Of a stretch of 34,001 nucleotides of DNA, positions 1 to 27,623 are shown piece by piece. This DNA comes from Muribaculum sp. (GTDB taxonomy: Bacteria; Bacillota; Clostridia; Lachnospirales; Lachnospiraceae): positions 1 through 34,001 of the forward strand of contig JAMPGV010000032.1 of the NCBI GenBank assembly GCA_023663735.1, read 5' to 3'. The position numbers and the translations under genes are program-made. The notes beneath the pieces were generated by a model that was given only the letters and a program-made list of their open reading frames with translations, was not told where the DNA came from and did no database searches. How positions within the stretch are numbered: the first letter of the stretch is position 1; the number at the start of each line of letters is the position of its first letter.

Positions 1-29
1 AGGTACAAATAAAAATCAATATTTAAAGT

Positions 30-43
30 GTGTCTTTTGACAC
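30..43. terminator. Small hairpin downstream of the trp operon, weak terminator candidate
   Basis: GTGTC and GACAC pair around a four-base loop. Read on the minus strand, the hairpin lies beyond the end of trpGD and the 205-bp repeat and is followed by an A/T-rich stretch without a clean T run. It is the only terminator-like structure visible left of the trp genes, and it is weak. Confidence 0.25.
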
Positions 44-55
44 CCGAATCTTTTT

Positions 56-260
56 AGGTGTTTGTGAAACTCTATTTTTCGGAATCAGAATTGTGCAGAT
101 TGTATATTCATAAGCAGACCCTAGCGAACCGCCGGTACTTAGGCGCTGTACTTTAGCGTCTTATGTACCGTTGCGGTGAGGTTGGAGCGAAAGCGTGTCT
201 GCGTTGAATGTGCAATTTGCACAATGACTCTTTGCAAATTAGTGCGTTTCGCAAATGTCT
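56..260. repeat. 205-bp structured inverted-terminus repeat, copy 1
   Basis: This stretch aligns gap-free with 25566-25770, about 178 of 205 positions identical by my count. Its ends (AGGTGTTTGTGAAAC and GTTTCGCAAATGTCT) pair almost throughout if G-U pairs are allowed. Inside, nested complementary segments follow in order: ATTGTGCA with TGCACAAT, ATTCA with TGAAT, GCAGAC with GTCTGC, ACCGC with GCGGT, CGGTAC with GTACCG, and GGCGCT with AGCGTC at the apex. The element ends five bases before the trpGD stop codon and is non-coding. It could be a MITE-type mobile element or a structured RNA gene; I do not recognise the family. Confidence 0.85.
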
Positions 261-265
261 ATTCT

Positions 266-1933
266 CTATTTTGTCAGTTCCACAAATTTCCGGAGCTGTT
301 CCATCGCCTTGCCGCTGTCCACCGTCTCCGCAGCCAGCCGCACCCCGTCCGCAATGCTCTGCGCGCGGCCCGCCACATAGAGAGCGGCTCCTGCGTTCAG
401 AAGCGCAGCGTCCCTCTTCGGACCCTTCTCCCCGCCAAGAACTGCCTTTGTGATCTCCGCATTTTCCTGCGGGCTTCCCCCCAGCAGATCCTCTTTGCGG
501 CAGCGCTCGATTCCCATCTCCTCGGGCGTGATGACATAAGACCGGATATCACCGTGATCCAGCTCGCATACACTGGTCGGTCCTACCGCGGAGATCTCAT
601 CCAGTTTCTCCTGACCGTACACCACCAGTCCGCGCTTGATGCCCAGTCTGGAAAGCACCTCGGCCATAGGTTTCAGAAGCGCCTCATCATACACACCCAT
701 CACAATATAAGACGGATAGGCAGGATTTGTCAACGGTCCCAAAATATTAAACACGGTCCGGATACCCAGCTCCTTGCGGATCGGTCCCACATATTTCATC
801 GCCGTATGATACTTCTGGGCGAACAGGAAACAGATGCCGATGTTCTCCAAAACCGCTCTGCTCTGTTCCGGTTCGATGCCGATGTTTACGCCCAGCGCCT
901 CCAGACAATCCGCCGCGCCGGACTTCGAGCTGGCGGCCCGGTTGCCATGCTTTGCCACCGGAACCCCCGCCGCAGAGATAATCAGGGAAGCGGTTGTGGA
1001 AATATTAAAAGAATTGGATCCGTCTCCTCCGGTTCCCACAATTTCCAGACAGTCCACATCCGCATCCAACCGCAGCGCGTGCGCCCGCATCGCCTCCGCG
1101 GAACCGCTGATCTCCTCGATGGTCTCCCCCTTCATGGAAAAGGCGGTGAGATAGGCGCTCTTTTGCACGTTCGTGGCTTCGCCGCTCATAATTTCATTCA
1201 TGACGGCCTTGGCCATCTCATAACCAATGTCCTCTTTCTTGCTCAACTTTACAATCGCTTCCTGAATCATGTGTACATCCTCCTTCTTTTGTATCCTGTT
1301 TTCTCCTAATCTCCCATTTTCGTTTGCTGCGCCGCTCTCTCCCCGGCCGCTTCCGGCTGCCAAAGCCTTCCCCGACAGGAAATTCTCTATGATTTTCCGG
1401 CCGTCCGGCGTCAGCACCGACTCCGGATGGAACTGCAGACCGTATATGGGGTATTCTGTATGTTCGACCGCCATGATCTCCCCGTCCGCAGTCCGCGCCG
1501 TGACCCTCAGGCAGTCCGGCATCGTCCCCGGATCCGCCGCAAGGGAGTGGTACCTTGCCACCACCAGCTCCCGCTCCATACCGTCAAACAGCGCACTGTC
1601 GGTATCGACGGACACTGCGGACTGCTTGCCGTGCATCAGCTCTTTCGCATAAGTGATATCTGCGCCGAAGACCTCACAGATGGCCTGATGCCCCAGACAG
1701 ATGCCGAGAATCGGCTTCTTCCCGGCAAGCCGCCGGATGACCTCCTCACAGACGCCCGCCTGTGCGGGTCTCCCGGGTCCGGGCGACAAAATCACGAAAT
1801 CCGGATCAAGGGCTTCAATTTCCTCCACCGTCAGCTCGTCGTTGCGAATCACTCGGATGTCCGGATTCACGGAACCCACCAGCTGATACACATTATAAGA
1901 AAAACTGTCATAATTATCGATCAAAAGTACCAT
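266..1933 (-). CDS. trpGD: Anthranilate synthase glutaminase fused to anthranilate phosphoribosyltransferase (TrpGD)
   Basis: This bifunctional enzyme supplies ammonia for anthranilate synthesis (TrpG part) and transfers phosphoribose to anthranilate (TrpD part), two cytoplasmic steps of tryptophan synthesis. Residues 1-186 are a class I glutamine amidotransferase with nucleophile Cys79 in GICLGHQ and the His169/Glu171 pair in QFHPES. Residues 222-555 are a full-length TrpD with the [14 protein letters not shown] phosphate-binding loop. A Gly/Glu-rich linker of about 35 residues joins them. The start at 1933 is chosen because AAAGGAG lies just upstream and the family begins with LLIDNYDSF; an extension to 1993 would overlap trpE. 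The gene lies 50 bases after trpE. A good ribosome binding site precedes Met222, so free TrpD may also be made. Confidence 0.93.
1268..1285 (-). promoter_or_regulatory. Internal ribosome binding site and start codon for trpD inside trpGD
   Basis: AAGGAGG at 1279-1285 is followed, after exactly eight bases, by an ATG at 1270-1268 that is in frame with the fusion and opens the canonical TrpD sequence MIQEAIV. This is as good as any start site in the window and would give a separate 334-residue TrpD. Confidence 0.6.
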
Positions 1934-1983
1934 GCTTTTTCTCCTTTCCCCTGCTTCCCTGCGATTCGATGTCTGCGCTGCGC

Positions 1984-3459
1984 TTATGCCCATTCCGTCC
2001 CGGCCAGCTCAATGGCGTTTCTCACCGCCGCGGCCTTTTGGATGCATTCCTGATACTCTTTCCCGGGAACGCTGTCCGCCACGATTCCGGCTCCGGACCG
2101 CACAAACACTTTTCCGTTCTTGGAGAACGCCAGCCGGATGGCGATGCAGGTGTCCAGATCGCCCGTAAAAGATAGGTAGCCGATCGCGCCGCCGTAAATC
2201 CCTCTCTTGTTGTTCTCCAGCTCGTTGATGATCTCACAGGCTCTGAGTTTCGGCGCGCCGGATAAGGTTCCCGCGGGCAGAATCGCATCCACCGCATCCA
2301 CTGCGTCCTTATCTGCCCCAAGCTGCCCGCTCACCGTGGAACCGATGTGCATCACATGGGAATAACGCTCCACGGACATATAGTTTTCCACTTGCACCGT
2401 GCCGATCCGGCTGATTTTGCCGATATCGTTCCGTCCCAGATCCACCAGCATATTGTGTTCCGCCCGCTCCTTCTCATCCGCGAGAAGCTCCCGTTCCAGC
2501 GCCTCGTCCTCCTCGGGCGACCCGCCTCTGGGTCTGGTTCCCGCGAGGGGAAACGTATACAGCTTCCCCTGTTCCAGCTTTACCAGCGTCTCCGGGCTTG
2601 CACCCGCAATTTCCCCGTCCGCGCCGGAGAAATAAAACATATACGGCGAGGGATTGGTCGTCCTAAGCACCCGGTAAGCATCCAAGAGACTTCCCTCCAT
2701 CTGCGCTTCCAGACGGTTGGAAAGCACCACCTGAAAGATATCTCCCTCTCTGATATAGCGCTTGCCCCGCTCCACCATTTGACAATACTGCTCCCTGTCA
2801 AAGAGCGGCTTGAATTCGCTTTTCAGCAGGAGCGGCAGATGCGGGGCTTTCTCCCCTTTTTGCAGGAGCTGCCGCATATTCTCCAGCTCCAGAACCGCCC
2901 TGTTGTAGTTGGTTTCCAGATCATCCGTGGACGCATTCACGATTAAAATGATTTTCTGCCTATAATTGTCAAACGCAACCACCTTATGAAACAGCATCAG
3001 ATTCACATCGGCGAACCCCTCCTCGTCCTCCGCGTCCAGTTTTAAGGTCGGCTCGCTGTACTTGATATAATCGTAGGAAAAATATCCCACCAGCCCGCCC
3101 GTGAAAGTGGGCAGTCCGGGAATCCGGGGACTCCTGTTCTCCGCCAGCACCTCCCGGATCAGCCCCCGCACGTCCTCCGTGGTCGTCCGGCTGTTCATGG
3201 GCGATTTGACCGTACTCGTTCCGTTATGGCAGGTGATCTCCAACACCGGGTCATATCCCAGAAACGAATAGCGCCCCCAGCGTTTGTCGGCCTCCGCACT
3301 CTCCAAAAGATACACATGCCTGCTGACCTTCTTCAGGATCCGCAGCACTTCGATCGGCGTGGTGCTGTCGGAATAGAGTTCGCAGCTCACCGGAACCACG
3401 CCGTAGGTTCCCTCTTTCGTCAATTCCTGACAGGTCTCCAGACTTGGGATAATCTTCAT
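1984..3459 (-). CDS. trpE: Anthranilate synthase component I
   Basis: TrpE converts chorismate to anthranilate using ammonia from the TrpG domain encoded next door, the committed step of tryptophan synthesis. The 491-residue length is normal. The N-terminal domain carries the LLES segment (residues around 52-55) that forms part of the tryptophan feedback site in this family. The C-terminal chorismate-binding domain has LAGTRPRGG and the [18 protein letters not shown] block, and closes with [10 protein letters not shown]. The start has GGAGG six bases upstream. The gene is first behind a T-box leader and promoter, so it should be expressed when uncharged tRNA-Trp accumulates; the protein is probably feedback-inhibited too (known for the family). 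Confidence 0.96.
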
Positions 3460-22371: not shown

Positions 22372-22692
22372 TCACAAAAAAATCCAGAGGAGAAATCCCA
22401 CAACCAGCGCAATGGCAAGCGTCTTCAGCCCGGCTCCCAGATAGAGGACTACCGAGCGGAACTTCACACGGTTTTTCGCCTCCGCCAGTCGGCTCTCCAG
22501 CTCCGTCTGCAGATCAAACGCGTCGCCCTCCTCCAGACGCAGCATTCCCTCCGTCACAAGGAACTGGATCACCAGCTCTTCATGACACTCGCTGCAAGTC
22601 TCCATATGCTCGCAAAATTGTTTTAATGTGAGAAAATCCAGCTCCCGTTCCAGAAAGGCGGGAATCTGTTTCTCAAAATCTTTACAAGTCAT
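22372..22692 (-). CDS. Small membrane protein with zf-HC2 (anti-sigma-like) motif
   Basis: The 106-residue product has Cys3, then His29, Cys33 and Cys36 (EHMETCSECHEE), the pattern of the zinc-binding anti-sigma domain zf-HC2, and a single C-terminal membrane helix (about 85-105) ending in LLWIFL. Anti-sigma factors of this class hold an ECF sigma factor at the membrane, but no sigma gene is next to it; the neighbour is polA. The N-terminus would be cytoplasmic. The first gene position in the polA operon is notable. GGGGGAG lies close to the start. Its partner, if any, cannot be inferred here. Confidence 0.75.
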   Translation of the reverse strand: MTCKDFEKQIPAFLERELDFLTLKQFCEHMETCSECHEELVIQFLVTEGMLRLEEGDAFDLQTELESRLAEAKNRVKFRSVVLYLGAGLKTLAIALVVGFLLWIFL

Positions 22693-22852: not shown

Positions 22853-22935
22853 GCCGGCGTGTCGGAATGGCAGACGAGGCAGACTCAAAATCTGTTGTGG
22901 GCAACCACGTGCGGGTTCAAGTCCCGCTGCCGGCA
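22853..22935 (+). tRNA. tRNA-Leu, anticodon CAA
   Basis: The gene folds as a class II tRNA. The acceptor stem GCCGGCG pairs with TGCCGGC and discriminator A follows; the anticodon loop CTCAAAA gives CAA, which reads TTG leucine codons. A long variable arm (GTGG-GCAA-CCAC) and a T arm GCGGG-TTCAAGT-CCCGC are clear. CCA is not encoded. It has its own promoter and terminator. Confidence 0.97.
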
Positions 22936-23080: not shown

Positions 23081-24118
23081 CTATATCCGCCGCATCCGCA
23101 CGGTGATATCGTTTCCCGCAGCCTCCACCTCTCCCATGCTTCCCACAATCAGTGGCATCATAGGCGGCAGATGCCCCAGATCCACGTCCATGACCACGGG
23201 TACCTGTTTCTTCCCCGCCACTTCCAGCACGGCGTCGTAGGCGTCCAGTCCCATCAGCTCCTGCCCTATACACAGCGGCCTGCCGATCAGGAATCCGTTC
23301 ACATGCTCAAACCATCCGGCCTCCTCCATCTGCCACATGGCTCTGCGAATGCCGAACACATTCAAATCGCAGGACTCCAGAAACCAGATAATTCCGTCCT
23401 CCCTGTACCGCTCCACAAACGCCTTCGTCCGGTCGAACCGCGTTCCCAACAGATTGACCAGACAGTCCATGCAGCCGCCCAGAAGCCTGCCGCTCATCCG
23501 CACGCTCCCCGCGCCCGCCGCCTCCCGGCCCACAAACGTTTTCAAAACCCGCCGCTCGGTCACATGATAGGGTGTAAGCGGATCTTCCCCCTCTTCCGAT
23601 TCCCGCTCCCATTTCTCATATCCGGCCACCGCATCCTGCTTCCCCGCAAGAAGCGCCATGGCGTCCCATAAGGAATCATGCCACGGCACACGGCCGAACG
23701 CCGGGGCGCAAGGCCCGTAGACCGACGCCGTATCGCACAGCGTCGCCAGCAGATAAGTAAAATTTGTATTGTCCGAATATCCCATATACCACTTCGGCTC
23801 GGCCGCCTTGATGCGCGCAAAATCCAGCTGGGACAAAACCTCGCACATCAGCTCCCCTCCGCCGCAGGAAATCAGACAGTCATTCTCCCCGCTGCAATAA
23901 TATGCCGCCAGCTCCTCCGCACACTTTGCCGGTGTGCTGCTGATCCCCACGCCGTCTCCCGCATAGCAGTTCGGCCCCAGATCCAGCGCATAGCCCTGCT
24001 CCCGGAATTGTTTCTGCGCATTTTCAAACCGACTCCGGTAAGGCTCGGTTCGGCAGCCGAAGGAAGGCGCCACAAACCCGATGGTCCCGCCCGGGGAAAG
24101 ATTTTTGGGATATCTCAT
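23081..24118 (-). CDS. S66-family LD-carboxypeptidase
   Basis: These enzymes remove the terminal D-amino acid from tetrapeptide stems, cutting an L,D bond at the carbon of meso-diaminopimelate, or a similar amide. The 345-residue protein has PGGTIGFVAPSFG near the start, the nucleophile Ser115 in GYSDNTN, the Glu region WFLESCDLN and the His of DLGHLPP near residue 315. No signal peptide is seen, which fits a cytoplasmic recycling role. Its start overlaps the lysA stop (ATGA), tying diaminopimelate use in lysine synthesis to peptidoglycan recycling. Related self-immunity enzymes of the MccF type share this fold, so the exact substrate is uncertain. Confidence 0.88.
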   Translation of the reverse strand: MRYPKNLSPGGTIGFVAPSFGCRTEPYRSRFENAQKQFREQGYALDLGPNCYAGDGVGISSTPAKCAEELAAYYCSGENDCLISCGGGELMCEVLSQLDFARIKAAEPKWYMGYSDNTNFTYLLATLCDTASVYGPCAPAFGRVPWHDSLWDAMALLAGKQDAVAGYEKWERESEEGEDPLTPYHVTERRVLKTFVGREAAGAGSVRMSGRLLGGCMDCLVNLLGTRFDRTKAFVERYREDGIIWFLESCDLNVFGIRRAMWQMEEAGWFEHVNGFLIGRPLCIGQELMGLDAYDAVLEVAGKKQVPVVMDVDLGHLPPMMPLIVGSMGEVEAAGNDITVRMRRI

Positions 24119-25395
24119 ACGCTCTCCTTTTGCAGTTTTTCAAAAATATCAAAACAGTCAAACGTGGCAAAGTAGTCCTTGGGCGTCTCCGCGCGACGGA
24201 TCAGTTCCACGCTGCCGTCCTCCTTGAGCAGAAGCTCCGCAGATTTTAATTTGCCGTTATAATTGTATCCCATGGCAAAACCGTGGGCGCCGGTGTCGTG
24301 AATCGCCAGATAATCGCCCACCGCGATCTCGGGCAGTTCCCGGTCAATGGCAAATTTGTCGTTGTTCTCGCACAGTGAACCCGTCACGTCATACAGATGG
24401 TCGCAGGGCCGGTTTTCCTTGCCCAGCACCGTAATGTGATGATAGGCTCCATACATGGCGGGGCGCATGAGATTTACCGCACAAGCGTCCACACCGATAT
24501 ACTCTTTGTGGGTGTGTTTTTCGTGTAATACCCGCGTCACCAGATGCCCGTAAGGCCCCGTCATGAAACGCCCCAGCTCCGTGTAAATCGCCACATCCTC
24601 CATGCCCGCGGGAACCAGAATCTCCTCGTACACCTGCCGCACGCCCTCGCCGATGGCCCGGATATCATTCGGCTCCTGATCCGGCCGATAGGGAATGCCG
24701 ATGCCTCCGGACAGATTGATAAACGCTATATGCGCCCCCGTCTCCTCCTTCAGCTTGACGGCCGTCTCGAACAGGGTTCTCGCCAGCGTGGGATAGTATT
24801 CGTTGGTCACGGTGTTGCTGGCTAGAAACGCATGGATCCCGAAATGCTCCACACCTTTCTGCTTCAAAATTCGGAACCCTTCAAACAGCTGCTCCGTGGT
24901 AAAACCGTATTTGGCGTCCCCGGGATTGTCCATGATGCTGTTGCTGATCGAGAAATATCCGCCTGGATTGTATCGGCAGCTTAAAGTCTTGGGCAGAGCG
25001 CCGATGGTCTTCTCCAGAAACGCAATATGGGTGATGTCGTCCAGATTGATGGTCGCGCCGATTCTGGCCGCATAGGCAAACTCCTCCGCAGGCGTGTCGT
25101 TGGAAGAAAACATGATATCCTCCCCTTTGACTCCCATGGCGTGCGCCAGCATCAGCTCCGTCTTGGAGGAACAGTCACAGCCGCAGCCGTACTCCCGCAA
25201 AATATTGATCAAAAAGGGATTGGGCGTCGCCTTGACCGCAAAAAATTCCTTGTAGCCCTTATTCCACGAAAACGCCTCCCGCAGAGCCTGCGCGTTGGCG
25301 CGGATTCCCTTCTCGTCATAGATATGGAACGGCGTGGGATAGGTCTTCACGATCTCCTCAATCATCTCTTTTGTGACAAACGCTTCTTTTTTCAT
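24115..25395 (-). CDS. lysA: Diaminopimelate decarboxylase
   Basis: LysA removes CO2 from meso-diaminopimelate to give lysine, using PLP. The 426-residue protein is a group IV decarboxylase: YPTPFHIYDEKG at the start, PLP lysine Lys55 in FFAVKATPNP, CGCDCSSKTELMLA, FINLSGGIGIPY for the phosphate loop, ELGRFMTGPYG and the ACAVNLMRPAMYGAYHHI block that forms the shared active site. The sequence is somewhat unlike the classical short LysA, but the neighbouring diaminopimelate dehydrogenase gene supports the assignment. AGGAAGG lies ahead of the start. It is coupled to the S66 peptidase. Confidence 0.88.
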   Translation of the reverse strand: MKKEAFVTKEMIEEIVKTYPTPFHIYDEKGIRANAQALREAFSWNKGYKEFFAVKATPNPFLINILREYGCGCDCSSKTELMLAHAMGVKGEDIMFSSNDTPAEEFAYAARIGATINLDDITHIAFLEKTIGALPKTLSCRYNPGGYFSISNSIMDNPGDAKYGFTTEQLFEGFRILKQKGVEHFGIHAFLASNTVTNEYYPTLARTLFETAVKLKEETGAHIAFINLSGGIGIPYRPDQEPNDIRAIGEGVRQVYEEILVPAGMEDVAIYTELGRFMTGPYGHLVTRVLHEKHTHKEYIGVDACAVNLMRPAMYGAYHHITVLGKENRPCDHLYDVTGSLCENNDKFAIDRELPEIAVGDYLAIHDTGAHGFAMGYNYNGKLKSAELLLKEDGSVELIRRAETPKDYFATFDCFDIFEKLQKESV

Positions 25396-25550
25396 GGCGT
25401 ACCTTCCTGATTTTATCTTGTTGTTTCTTTTTGTTTCTTTATTTCCCTATGATTTCTTTGTTTCTCTTTGTTTTCTTTATTTCCCTTTGATTTCTTTGTT
25501 TCCTTTGCTTCCTTTATTTTCTTTTGTTTTTTATTTTCTTTGTCTCACTT
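25396..25550. repeat. Pyrimidine-rich low-complexity leader region before lysA
   Basis: The plus strand consists almost wholly of T and C, with recurring TTTCTTTGTTTC and TTTATTTCCCT blocks. As minus-strand RNA it is a purine-rich leader directly before the lysA ribosome binding site. No gene, riboswitch core or clear promoter is visible in it. Confidence 0.65.
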
Positions 25551-25565
25551 TATCTCTTTTTATTC

Positions 25566-25770
25566 AGGTGATTGCGAAACGATATTTTTCGGAATCCAAA
25601 TTGTGCAGATTGTATATTCATAAGCAGACCCTAGCGAACCGTTGGCACTTAGGCGCTGTATTTTAGCGCCTTATGTGCCACTACGGTGAGGTGAGAGCGA
25701 AAGCGTGTCTGCGTTGAATGTGCAATTTGCACAATGACCCTCTACGAAATGTAGCGTTTCGCAAACATCT
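25566..25770. repeat. 205-bp structured inverted-terminus repeat, copy 2
   Basis: This is the second full-length copy of the element at 56-260, in the same orientation and of the same length with no gap. Its ends AGGTGATTGCGAAACG and CGTTTCGCAAACATCT are complementary over most of 16 bases, with a perfect ten-base core. The apical stem ACCGT-TGGCAC-GGCGCT pairs fully with AGCGCC-GTGCCA-ACGGT. The identical 13-mer TATCTCTTTTTAT lies at 25551-25563 and 25770-25782, flanking the copy, which looks like a target-site duplication although the context is T-rich. It lies between ddh and lysA; 25783-25879 holds nothing else I can name. Confidence 0.87.
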
Positions 25771-25879
25771 ATCTCTTTTTATCTTGAAGATGCTGTCGAT
25801 CTTTTCGTCTGCTTTCCGCAGGCTTTGTTTTAGCTTTATGGATTTAGGGATTTTTTAAGTTTGGGTTTCCCCGTCCCGC

Positions 25880-26857
25880 TCACAGGAGATGCGCCCGCAG
25901 CTCCTCGCCAGACAGCGGACTCAGATCGGCGGGAGCCACGTCGAACACCGTCTTACAGCCGCTGACGCCCCGCTGGTTCATGCGGTAGGCCGCTCTGGCA
26001 TAGGCTGCCAGCACACAGGCCGTGAACTCCGGATTGGAATCCAGCTTCAGGCTGTACTCAATCACATGATTATGCTCTCCGTTCTTTCCGGTTCTCCCCG
26101 TGCGCAACACGAAACCGCCGTGGGGAATCCCCGCGTGATCCCGCTCAAGCTCCTCCTCGGAAATAAAGTGTACGGTGGTATCATAATCCGCAAAATAGTT
26201 GGGCATCGTTTTGATCTGCTCCTCAATCCGGCTCAGATCCGCACCGTCCTCCGCCACCACAAAACACTCTCTTGTATGCTTCTGTCTGGTAGTCAGCTCA
26301 GGATTCTCACAGGCTCTCACGGACGCCAGCGCCGCATCCACGGGAATCGTGTACTGCTTGGCGTTCTTCACCCCCGCAATCCGGCGGATAGCGTCGGAAT
26401 GTCCCTGGCTCACGCCCTTGCCCCAGAACGTATAGTCGTTGCCGTCCCGCAGAATGGCATTGGCATACAGCCGGTTTAAAGAGAACATCCCCGGATCCCA
26501 GCCCACGGAGATCATGGCGACCTTGCCGCCCGCCTTGGCCGAAGCGTCCACCTTCTCAAAATGTTCGGGAATTCTGGCATGGGTGTCAAAACTGTCCACC
26601 ACATTGAAGAGCTTCGCATACTCCGGCGTCTGTCCGGGCAGATCCGTGGCGGAACCGCCGCAGAGAATCAACACATCCAGCTTCCCCTGCATATTTTTCA
26701 GCTCGTCCGCATGATACACGGGTACACCGCTCTGCGTCTTCACGCTCTCCGGCTGTCTGCGGGTGAAAACCGCTGCAAGCTCCATGTCGTCGTTTTGAGC
26801 TACGGCGCACTCCACGCCCCTGCCCAGATTTCCATACCCCAAGATTCCGATTTTCAT
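25880..26857 (-). CDS. ddh: meso-Diaminopimelate D-dehydrogenase
   Basis: Ddh makes meso-diaminopimelate in one NADPH-dependent step from tetrahydrodipicolinate and ammonia, a short cut to the lysine and peptidoglycan precursor. The 325-residue length is typical. The dinucleotide-binding loop GILGYGNLGRGVE is at residues 4-16, followed by FTRRQPESVKT, the SFDTHARIPEHF substrate region, ISVGWDPGMFSLNR and GKGVSQGHSDAIRRI. AAAGGAAAC precedes the start. LysA, encoded next in the same direction, consumes the product. A short relative of the 205-bp repeat occupies the 5' flank. Confidence 0.96.
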   Translation of the reverse strand: MKIGILGYGNLGRGVECAVAQNDDMELAAVFTRRQPESVKTQSGVPVYHADELKNMQGKLDVLILCGGSATDLPGQTPEYAKLFNVVDSFDTHARIPEHFEKVDASAKAGGKVAMISVGWDPGMFSLNRLYANAILRDGNDYTFWGKGVSQGHSDAIRRIAGVKNAKQYTIPVDAALASVRACENPELTTRQKHTRECFVVAEDGADLSRIEEQIKTMPNYFADYDTTVHFISEEELERDHAGIPHGGFVLRTGRTGKNGEHNHVIEYSLKLDSNPEFTACVLAAYARAAYRMNQRGVSGCKTVFDVAPADLSPLSGEELRAHLL

Positions 26858-26890
26858 ATTTTGTTTCCTTTCTTCTATTCTTCTATGCTA

Positions 26891-26949
26891 GGCAATTGCG
26901 AAACTTCAGCTTAAGTAATCCGAATTGTGCAAATTAGAGCGTCTCTCAA
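26891..26949. repeat. Short derivative of the 205-bp repeat
   Basis: The left part AGGCAATTGCGAAAC matches the 5' end of the 205-bp element (AGGTGATTGCGAAAC), then AATCCGAATTGTGCA matches its next block, and GCAAATTAGAGCGTCTC matches its 3' end (GCAAATTAGTGCGTTTC in copy 1). It looks like an internal deletion joining both ends. It fills the ung-ddh gap and reaches the ung stop codon. Confidence 0.6.
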
Positions 26950-27623
26950 CACGAAATATTTTCAATCTGCCAGTCTATAGGTTCCACGCCCCTCTCCCGC
27001 AGAAACGCATTGGTTCTGCTAAAGGGCCTGCTCCCAAAAAATCCTCTGTATGCGGAGAGCGGACTCGGATGAGGCGCCTCCAGAATCAGATGATTGGGAT
27101 TGTCCAACATACTCTTTTTCGCCTGTGCGGGCTTTCCCCACAAAATAAACACAATGGGCCGGTTCTGCGCATTCAGCGCGCGGATCGCCGCATCCGTAAA
27201 CTCCTCCCAGCCCTGTCCGTGATGGGAGTTGGCTCTGTGCGCCCGCACCGTCAGCACGGTATTGAGCAACAGAACACCCTGTTCGGCCCATTTTACCAGA
27301 TAGCCATTGTTGGGGATATAACACCCCAGATCGTCCTGCAATTCCTTATAAATATTCACCAAGGACGGCGGGATATCCACTCCGGGCTTCACCGAAAAAC
27401 ACAGCCCATGCGCCTGTCCCGGCTCATGATAGGGATCCTGCCCGATGATCACCACCTTCACATCGCCGAGAGGCGTCAGATGAAACGCATTAAAAATATC
27501 GTCCGAGGGCGGAAAAATCTGCGTGGTATTGTATTCCTGTTTGACGAATTCATACAGTTTCCGATAATAGGGTTTCTTAAATTCCGCTCCCATGGCGGGA
27601 AGCCAGTCATTGTCTATCATCAT
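26946..27623 (-). CDS. ung: Uracil-DNA glycosylase
   Basis: Ung excises uracil from DNA to start base-excision repair. The 225-residue protein is a family-1 enzyme: the water-activating motif [18 protein letters not shown] near residue 61, [23 protein letters not shown], and the DNA-intercalating [13 protein letters not shown] loop near 185-197. The ATG overlaps the hisF stop, so it is translated as part of the his operon, a chance or regulatory linkage with no metabolic logic that I can see. Its last codons abut the short repeat. Confidence 0.97.

Follow-up and report, generated by a model that had tools for sequence, protein, structure and literature searches.

Two copies of a 205-bp repeat in the window, that is, in the whole 34,001-nucleotide stretch of DNA analysed here, raise a simple question: is this repeat a MITE-like element moved in trans, or is it a dispersed structured RNA? 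The initial annotation had left these two alternatives side by side, and our results support both together, in the form of a MITE shell around a structured core. The sequence observations on which it relied were reproduced. A gap-free alignment of the two copies gave 27 differing bases out of 205, and the joint changes described for the apical stem (C-G to T-A twice, T-A to C-G once, and G-T to G-C) are all present, as are the identical stretches that flank this stem in both copies. The tetraloop hairpin GCGAAAGC is indeed found at 187-194 and at 25697-25704. The two copies could not reveal that the shell can be separated from the core, or that the two differ in their rate of evolution. The features of the two copies are given below, together with their scores against R1, a covariance model built from 32 aligned cores.

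56-260, plus strand: copy 1, 205 bp; the plus strand is the folding strand, with the GNRA loop
56-72, plus strand: left terminal inverted repeat of copy 1, diverged, AGGTGTTTGTGAAACTC
104-209, plus strand: structured core of copy 1, R1 match of 111.2 bits, with GCAGAC...GTCTGC at 114-202
187-194, plus strand: mini hairpin P5 of copy 1 (GC-GAAA-GC), GNRA-capped
246-260, minus strand: right terminal inverted repeat of copy 1, AGACATTTGCGAAAC
25552-25563, plus strand: left target-site duplication of copy 2, ATCTCTTTTTAT; the bases TC lie between duplication and element
25566-25770, plus strand: copy 2, 205 bp
25566-25580, plus strand: left terminal inverted repeat of copy 2
25614-25719, plus strand: structured core of copy 2, R1 match of 107.6 bits, with GCAGAC...GTCTGC at 25624-25712
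25697-25704, plus strand: mini hairpin P5 of copy 2, GNRA-capped
25756-25770, minus strand: right terminal inverted repeat of copy 2
25771-25782, plus strand: right target-site duplication of copy 2, ATCTCTTTTTAT, identical to the left one
26890-26956, plus strand: relic of this MITE shell that lacks a core; its left end AGGCAATTGCGAAAC is intact and its right end, judged by eye, is decayed

Copy 1 ends 5 bp short of the stop end of a trpGD-like ORF (266-1993, minus strand). Copy 2 is flanked by an nspC-like decarboxylase gene (24115-25395, minus strand) and a diaminopimelate dehydrogenase gene (25880-26857, minus strand). The core-less relic at 26890-26956 lies upstream of ddh. Two mechanically called ORFs, 176-1309 and 25373-25666, overlap the copies, the former on the strand opposite the trpGD-like gene; no protein belonging to the element itself was seen, either there or, by eye, beside the copies at 149 loci, and no promoter or terminator was evident by eye. 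In RNA folding, the plus strands of the two copies reached -89.3 and -98.0 kcal/mol, and their complements -58.4 and -74.5 kcal/mol. Elsewhere in the window, a tRNA match (RF00005, 52 bits) is situated at 22853-22935, between an ORF ending at 22692 and an ORF starting at 23081. Nearly the same stretch as window positions 1-55 opens four contigs of the window's own genome (G000), namely C55, C41, C49 and C12 (L004, L170, L168 and L167), and in these near-identical starts, the window included, GACACCCGAATC shortly precedes a shell end; perhaps the assembly broke within a longer repeat.

How widespread is the element? The initial annotation had proposed a search for further copies, and R1 found many, both in the same genome and in relatives. 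G000 is 2.65 Mb long and 87% complete. BLAST with copy 1 identified at least 41 places in it at E <= 2.5e-50, copy 1 included (40 of 134 first-look candidates scored), and R1 gave at least 57 matches (64 of 704 candidates scored). Within the genus, R1 had matches in 26 of 37 genomes; among 299 sampled Lachnospiraceae genomes it had matches in 123, corresponding to 122 of 298 genera, and many of these core-bearing genomes had 13 or more copies; a genome counted as being without core is one with no R1 match among the 11-64 candidates scored for it. None of 24 genomes from other families of the order had a match, and all four matching genomes in a sample of 348 across the phylum belong to Lachnospiraceae. 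The hosts among the matches listed include records of Acetatifactor, Marvinbryantia, Butyrivibrio and Mediterraneibacter. The matches listed further comprise two records of a single MAG that bear the name Candidatus Gastranaerophilales; this label, which would place the element outside the family, is probably an error. Phage or plasmid carriage was considered and set aside: one IMG/VR viral contig matches the element, and the plasmid and phage records searched gave no match.

No Rfam 15 family covers either copy at gathering score. Below threshold, copy 1 had a single hit, with an E value of 4.7, and no hit overlapped the element at nine loci from other genomes. No description of the element came up in our searches of the open literature, which is weak evidence of absence, since subscription papers were mostly outside its scope. 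The initial annotation knew of no named family that fits; this was borne out for Rfam and did not hold for insertion elements, as the shell matches an IS1182-like family (see below). We conclude that the element family is real, large, mobile and structured, that conservation of its folded part goes beyond its means of movement, and that it is, as far as searched, undescribed.

The core, of about 130 bp, folds into a three-way junction with a GNRA-capped hairpin: a long stem P1 leads to the junction, from which emerge a branch P2-P3-P4 with a conserved two-base bulge and the short GNRA hairpin P5. Covariation was assessed on 116 copies from 100 of about 150 loci, an alignment from which duplicates and most G000 copies had been left out. 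Standard pairs made up 93.1% of 4066 pair cells, and double changes were seen in 35 of 36 pairs. The initial annotation had called for a comparison with shuffled alignments, and the covariation proved far above these: the score was 0.607, against 0.196 for shuffled and at most 0.120 for slid versions, the shuffles being of a kind that does not keep the relatedness among copies. The observed value was reached by 0 of 500 shuffles for all five measures; with 32 sequences this was the case for four of the measures, and 1 of 500 shuffles reached the fifth. Slid versions were far lower with either set.

Is the folded molecule RNA, or could it be single-stranded DNA? G-T or T-G combinations occupy 235 pair cells and A-C or C-A combinations 35, and the excess persists, at 76 versus 35, when two mostly-G-U pairs are taken out. 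The P5 loop is of the GNRA type in 114 of 116 copies, spread over six sequence variants, and in all 30 of the G000 copies. Such strictness for GNRA is a habit of RNA. The folded strand is the plus strand of the window, and the G-T excess together with the GNRA rule suggests that the core is most naturally taken for RNA and not for single-stranded DNA. The notion of a tertiary contact between the GNRA loop and a receptor was also considered, and no clear co-variation between loop type and internal-loop type was found. Two of six shell-bounded forms that we read (L173 and L174) have no GNRA hairpin. In longer forms, of 263-287 bp, the apical core stem contains an additional large hairpin (L171:201-487, L172:190-458 and L173:169-431).

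The shell has terminal inverted repeats AGRYRWTTGCGAAAC at both ends, the left end of copy 1 being diverged. This pattern occurs 117 times in G000, and its reversed control pattern does not occur at all. With a relaxed motif, both shell ends were recognized in 38 of the 152 copies, which come from all the genomes examined. Most of the 37 shell copies listed lie between direct repeats, with a best length of 12-14 in 26 of them, and by eye these target duplications have no palindromic look; palindromes are reported targets for some members of the IS1182 family. Copy 2 has an exact 12-bp duplication; no recognizable one was found at copy 1. Among 112 copies without the strict shell motif, a flanking match of at least 12 bases was found in 12, compared to 5 of 327 swapped pairs, two of the 152 copies having been dropped from this test for their short flanks. 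Judged by eye, four of these 12 are shell copies that the motif had missed (L006, L016, L062 and L129), five belong to nested, paired or tandem arrangements (L010, L110, L113, L121 and L155), and three have no explanation (L053, L106 and L142). The genes that flank copy 2 are adjacent in eight relatives (L380-L387); R1 finds nothing between them in any of these, and this insertion is lineage-specific. A search for ancient insertion sites common to several genera produced one candidate, downstream of glgB (L026 and L142), with ends that differ.

What moves the shell? In other genera, facing shell ends bound two IS-like stretches, one measuring 1762 bp (L369) and the other 1809 bp (L370), that hold pieces of a transposase, and the same transposase family recurs in five further genomes at the shell-bearing loci L343, L344, L356, L364 and L371. 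The two frames scanned, both incomplete, matched NF033551 (IS1182) with E values of 2.3e-21 and 1.4e-9, at 76.3 and 37.3 bits against a cut-off of 270, and they also matched the domains DUF772 or DDE_Tnp_1. Having missed the curated family cut-off, the putative mover may be called IS1182-like only. When 435 loci were searched by tblastn with IS1182-like proteins, matches were confined to the IS-bearing loci of other genera and a weak one at locus L198 of G112; the examined loci of G000 and of G236, another genome, gave none. An IS4-type transposase (PF01609) was rejected as the mover, with 0 matches in the whole of G000 and G236. This absence does not exclude an IS1182-like enzyme, since one of the two scanned members has no PF01609 match itself. 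An autonomous copy in G236 was likewise looked for in 20 stretches around shell ends, five of them shorter than 200 bp owing to contig ends, and no transposase ORF was seen by eye. By four features, namely terminal repeats, target duplications, lack of coding capacity and an autonomous element sharing its ends, the shell is an ordinary MITE.

The same shell ends occur in 86 of the 299 family genomes, 41 of which have no core match, and in 16 shell-bearing loci, some of them IS copies, R1 did not find a core. Of the 123 core genomes, 104 have at most three shell ends and 19 have at least four, and 14 genomes have four or more shell ends without a core match. At least one shell end was present in 45 of 123 core genomes versus 41 of 176 others, a weak association (p = 0.014). 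Shell and core are separable, and the core is far wider spread than the shell. In G000 itself, core-less shells of 57-88 bp and the 263-287 bp forms coexist with the 205-bp form. Two genomes, G225 and G208, contain 103 and 43 shell ends, respectively, and no core match.

In other genomes the core is found in other settings. It sits on simple long stems in G120, in inverted pairs in G334 and G160, and in tandem arrays with periods of 137-182 bp in G164, where the repeats at L417:637-1232 and L416:801-1041 have periods of 164 and 137 bp. In G160, both at L404:801-1224 and at L405:801-1372, two inverted cores together form an apparently non-coding composite, with inverted TAAATTATGGTTTA-like ends by eye. 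In G334, unlike cores are paired in inverted order at L120, L121 and L125, and the pairs at L121 and L125 lie inside long outer inverted repeats with GGGGACAGYCCC-AAATTGCAC.

If shell and core are separable, do they also fare differently once inserted? Terminal-branch changes per site and copy were counted for 30 G000 copies, on a tree dominated by core sites, which may inflate the counted shell changes: the values were 0.090 and 0.073 for the terminal inverted repeats (TIRs), 0.081 and 0.065 for the spacers, 0.015 and 0.013 for P1, and 0.0195 for the core. On the same tree the GNRA hairpin behaved like the rest of the core (7/330 = 0.021). Target duplications showed 21 differences over 198 sites, which is about 5% per copy, near the shell and unlike the core; this figure comes from 18 of the 21 listed G000 copies, three without a recognizable repeat having been left out. 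Singletons, which are independent of the tree, amounted to 2.8 and 1.8% in the TIRs, 1.1 and 0.9% in the spacers, 0.5 and 0.7% in P1 and 0.6% in the core; those of the GNRA hairpin were not below the spacers (4/330 = 0.0121 versus 0.0105 and 0.0094). Broken pairs made up 2.1% in the core, 1.1% in P1 and 12.9% in the TIR stem. Since core and P1 change more slowly than the shell and the target duplications, the core seems to be kept under constraint after insertion while the shell drifts, which would mean selection on the core where it has landed.

A regulatory role in cis was examined on the orientation of 152 copies with respect to flanking genes, based on crude longest-ORF calls: 42 were sense, 59 antisense, 18 convergent, 16 divergent, and for 17 one side could not be determined. 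A role in the sense orientation was rejected, and a plain cis-regulatory role in mRNA is unsupported, because the orientation is not biased towards sense. Nor did inspection by eye reveal a recurrent partner protein beside the copies at 149 loci. The two largest neighbour clusters, covering 15 and 10 loci, appear by eye to consist of paralogous transporters and two-component proteins, and another recurrent "protein" at these loci was the G106 sequence of the repeat itself. At L008, L047 and L054, copies lie near genes of one protein family, which we take to resemble Rpn-type nucleases; this is possibly a coincidence.

Taken as a whole, these findings make it probable that the element is mobile, non-autonomous and equipped with a conserved module of structured RNA: the shell is moved in trans, and the core folds, is kept and is functional. 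The ends common to shell and IS suggest that an IS1182-like transposase, acting in trans, would insert the shell by its AGRYRWTTGCGAAAC repeats and leave target duplications of about 12-14 bp. When a plus-strand transcript crosses the element, the core of about 130 bases would fold into P1, the three-way junction, P2-P3-P4 and the GNRA hairpin. The core and not the shell would then be kept after insertion; the difference in rate is an observation, and we infer selection rather than gene conversion as its cause. The core would be the functional part, most likely a platform on the read-through transcript for binding or processing by a host protein or nuclease. Such a platform would account for the retention of the core at many sites, in either orientation, and for its presence within different shells in different genera.

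The main alternative to selection for the slow rate is gene conversion limited to the core, which could also keep the copies alike. In its full form this explanation holds that conversion, or copying limited to the core, homogenizes copies none of which is functional. Genomes with many copies at about 85-95% identity are what one would expect of such a process, and palindromes are prone to template switching. We nevertheless regard it as unlikely: the pattern of constraint tracks the fold from genus to genus, a range over which conversion would be implausible, it extends to unpaired positions (the GNRA loop, the bulge and the internal loop), and the shell palindrome, which is equally repetitive, stays un-homogenized. 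A different explanation would do away with RNA altogether. REPINs and attC sites are recognized as folded single-stranded DNA by a transposase or recombinase, and the plus strand of our element might similarly fold during replication and serve as a mobility signal at the DNA level, with no RNA function. Folding of single-stranded DNA would also produce covariation and a strand-biased G-T excess, and the random orientation to genes, the repetitive and lineage-specific nature of the element, and the multicopy cores in genera with few or no IS1182-like ends are all compatible with this. However, the GNRA strictness (114 of 116) speaks for RNA, and in G000 it is the terminal repeats that decay and the core that does not, the opposite of what is predicted for dead insertions moved by these ends. 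Moreover, no Y1 transposase (PF01797) was found in G000, and such enzymes are no more frequent in core genomes (63 of 123) than in the others (109 of 176; p = 0.075). On balance we find a DNA-level signal somewhat unlikely.

It is also conceivable that the core is a mobile unit in its own right. It would then be a replicator, a structured nucleic acid of about 130 bases present family-wide, spreading by a hairpin-based mechanism of its own and, at each insertion, either writing or acquiring a pair of palindromic arms peculiar to the locus, or homing into palindromes; shells, such as the MITE shell in G000, would be secondary vehicles on which it hitch-hiked, and selection as an RNA would have followed. 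This idea draws on a comparison of the 45 bp outside the core, in which pairing was scored within and between copies for nine sets comprising 80 copies. In the eight copies of G120 (genus g84), the mean score was 17.0 for a copy's own arms, 7.9 between copies and 8.0 when shuffled, and in seven of the eight own pairing exceeded every cross pairing. Own pairing was best in 4 of 7 copies of G334, 4 of 10 of G115, 2 of 5 of G106, 4 of 7 of G017 and 12 of 14 single copies from many genomes; by contrast, G000 (0 of 15), G236 (0 of 9) and G141 (0 of 5) are without copy-specific arms. At one G120 site, three sister species have neither an R1 match nor the G120 arms, and in two of them about 30 bp separate the genes. 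In the third sister, G702 (L427), the intergenic stretch is longer and contains a palindrome whose sequence is unrelated, with no core. Terminators or pre-existing palindromes were considered as targets in G120, and at this one site its palindrome was not seen in the three sisters; as G702 has another palindrome in the same place, palindromes may still pre-exist at such sites and act as targets, which counts against arms made by the core itself. The sister species are also diverged, with identities around the site of 76-78% in the right flank and 66-69% in the left, and at such low identity the formation of arms upon insertion is a lead and not a proof. The tandem arrays of G164 and the inverted pairs of G160 and G334 would suit an independent unit, the lack of a partner protein recurring beside the copies would not, and we hold this reading to be quite unlikely. 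If it were true, the core would represent a new class of bacterial mobile element.

Returning to the mobile element with a functional RNA module, why should it matter? Lachnospiraceae are major gut commensals, and an element present, frequently at high copy number, in about four out of ten of the sampled genera has, as far as searched, no name. Its moving part, the shell, decays, and its folding part, the core, is kept, although the two are usually taken together. If the core is functional, genomes are being seeded by a mobile element with an RNA module ready for use; should it have no function, strong structural conservation will have to be explained by mobility or conversion alone. Either outcome is directly testable, because copies, copy-less sites and core-less copies exist side by side. 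We consider the element a good candidate for a functional mobile RNA of a new kind.

How does it compare to known systems? Like the families of Rfam 15 it is covarying and intergenic, and unlike them it corresponds to none at gathering score. ERIC, NEMIS/Correia and RU repeats are small elements with inverted repeats that lie between genes and can be co-transcribed with their neighbours. To our knowledge, their sequences and folds are unrelated to those of our element, and we know of no description, for any of them, of family-wide structural conservation with separable shells. Y1 elements insert without target duplication, whereas our element has duplications of about 12-14 bp. This, together with the absence of Y1 matches from G000 (87% complete) and the lack of Y1 enrichment in core genomes, led us to reject a REPIN moved by a RAYT (Y1) transposase, an origin that we judge highly improbable. 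The resemblance is real nonetheless: REPINs, like our element, are intergenic and palindromic, have many copies and compensatory changes, and occur in tandem and inverted clusters (PMC3116915). The three-way junction and GNRA hairpin set our element apart from REPINs/BIMEs, in which REPINs consist of two short REPs. As for IS1272, of the IS1182 family, it reportedly recognizes stem-loops as its targets and replaces them without duplicating the target site (PMC5678879), which differs from the duplications of about 12-14 bp seen here. With the MITEs of IS1272 and its relatives in the IS1182 family, our element shares its ends, its non-coding nature, its target duplications and the existence of core-less derivatives of 57-88 bp; what distinguishes it from these MITEs, and from the IS copies that we read, is that it carries a conserved folded core.
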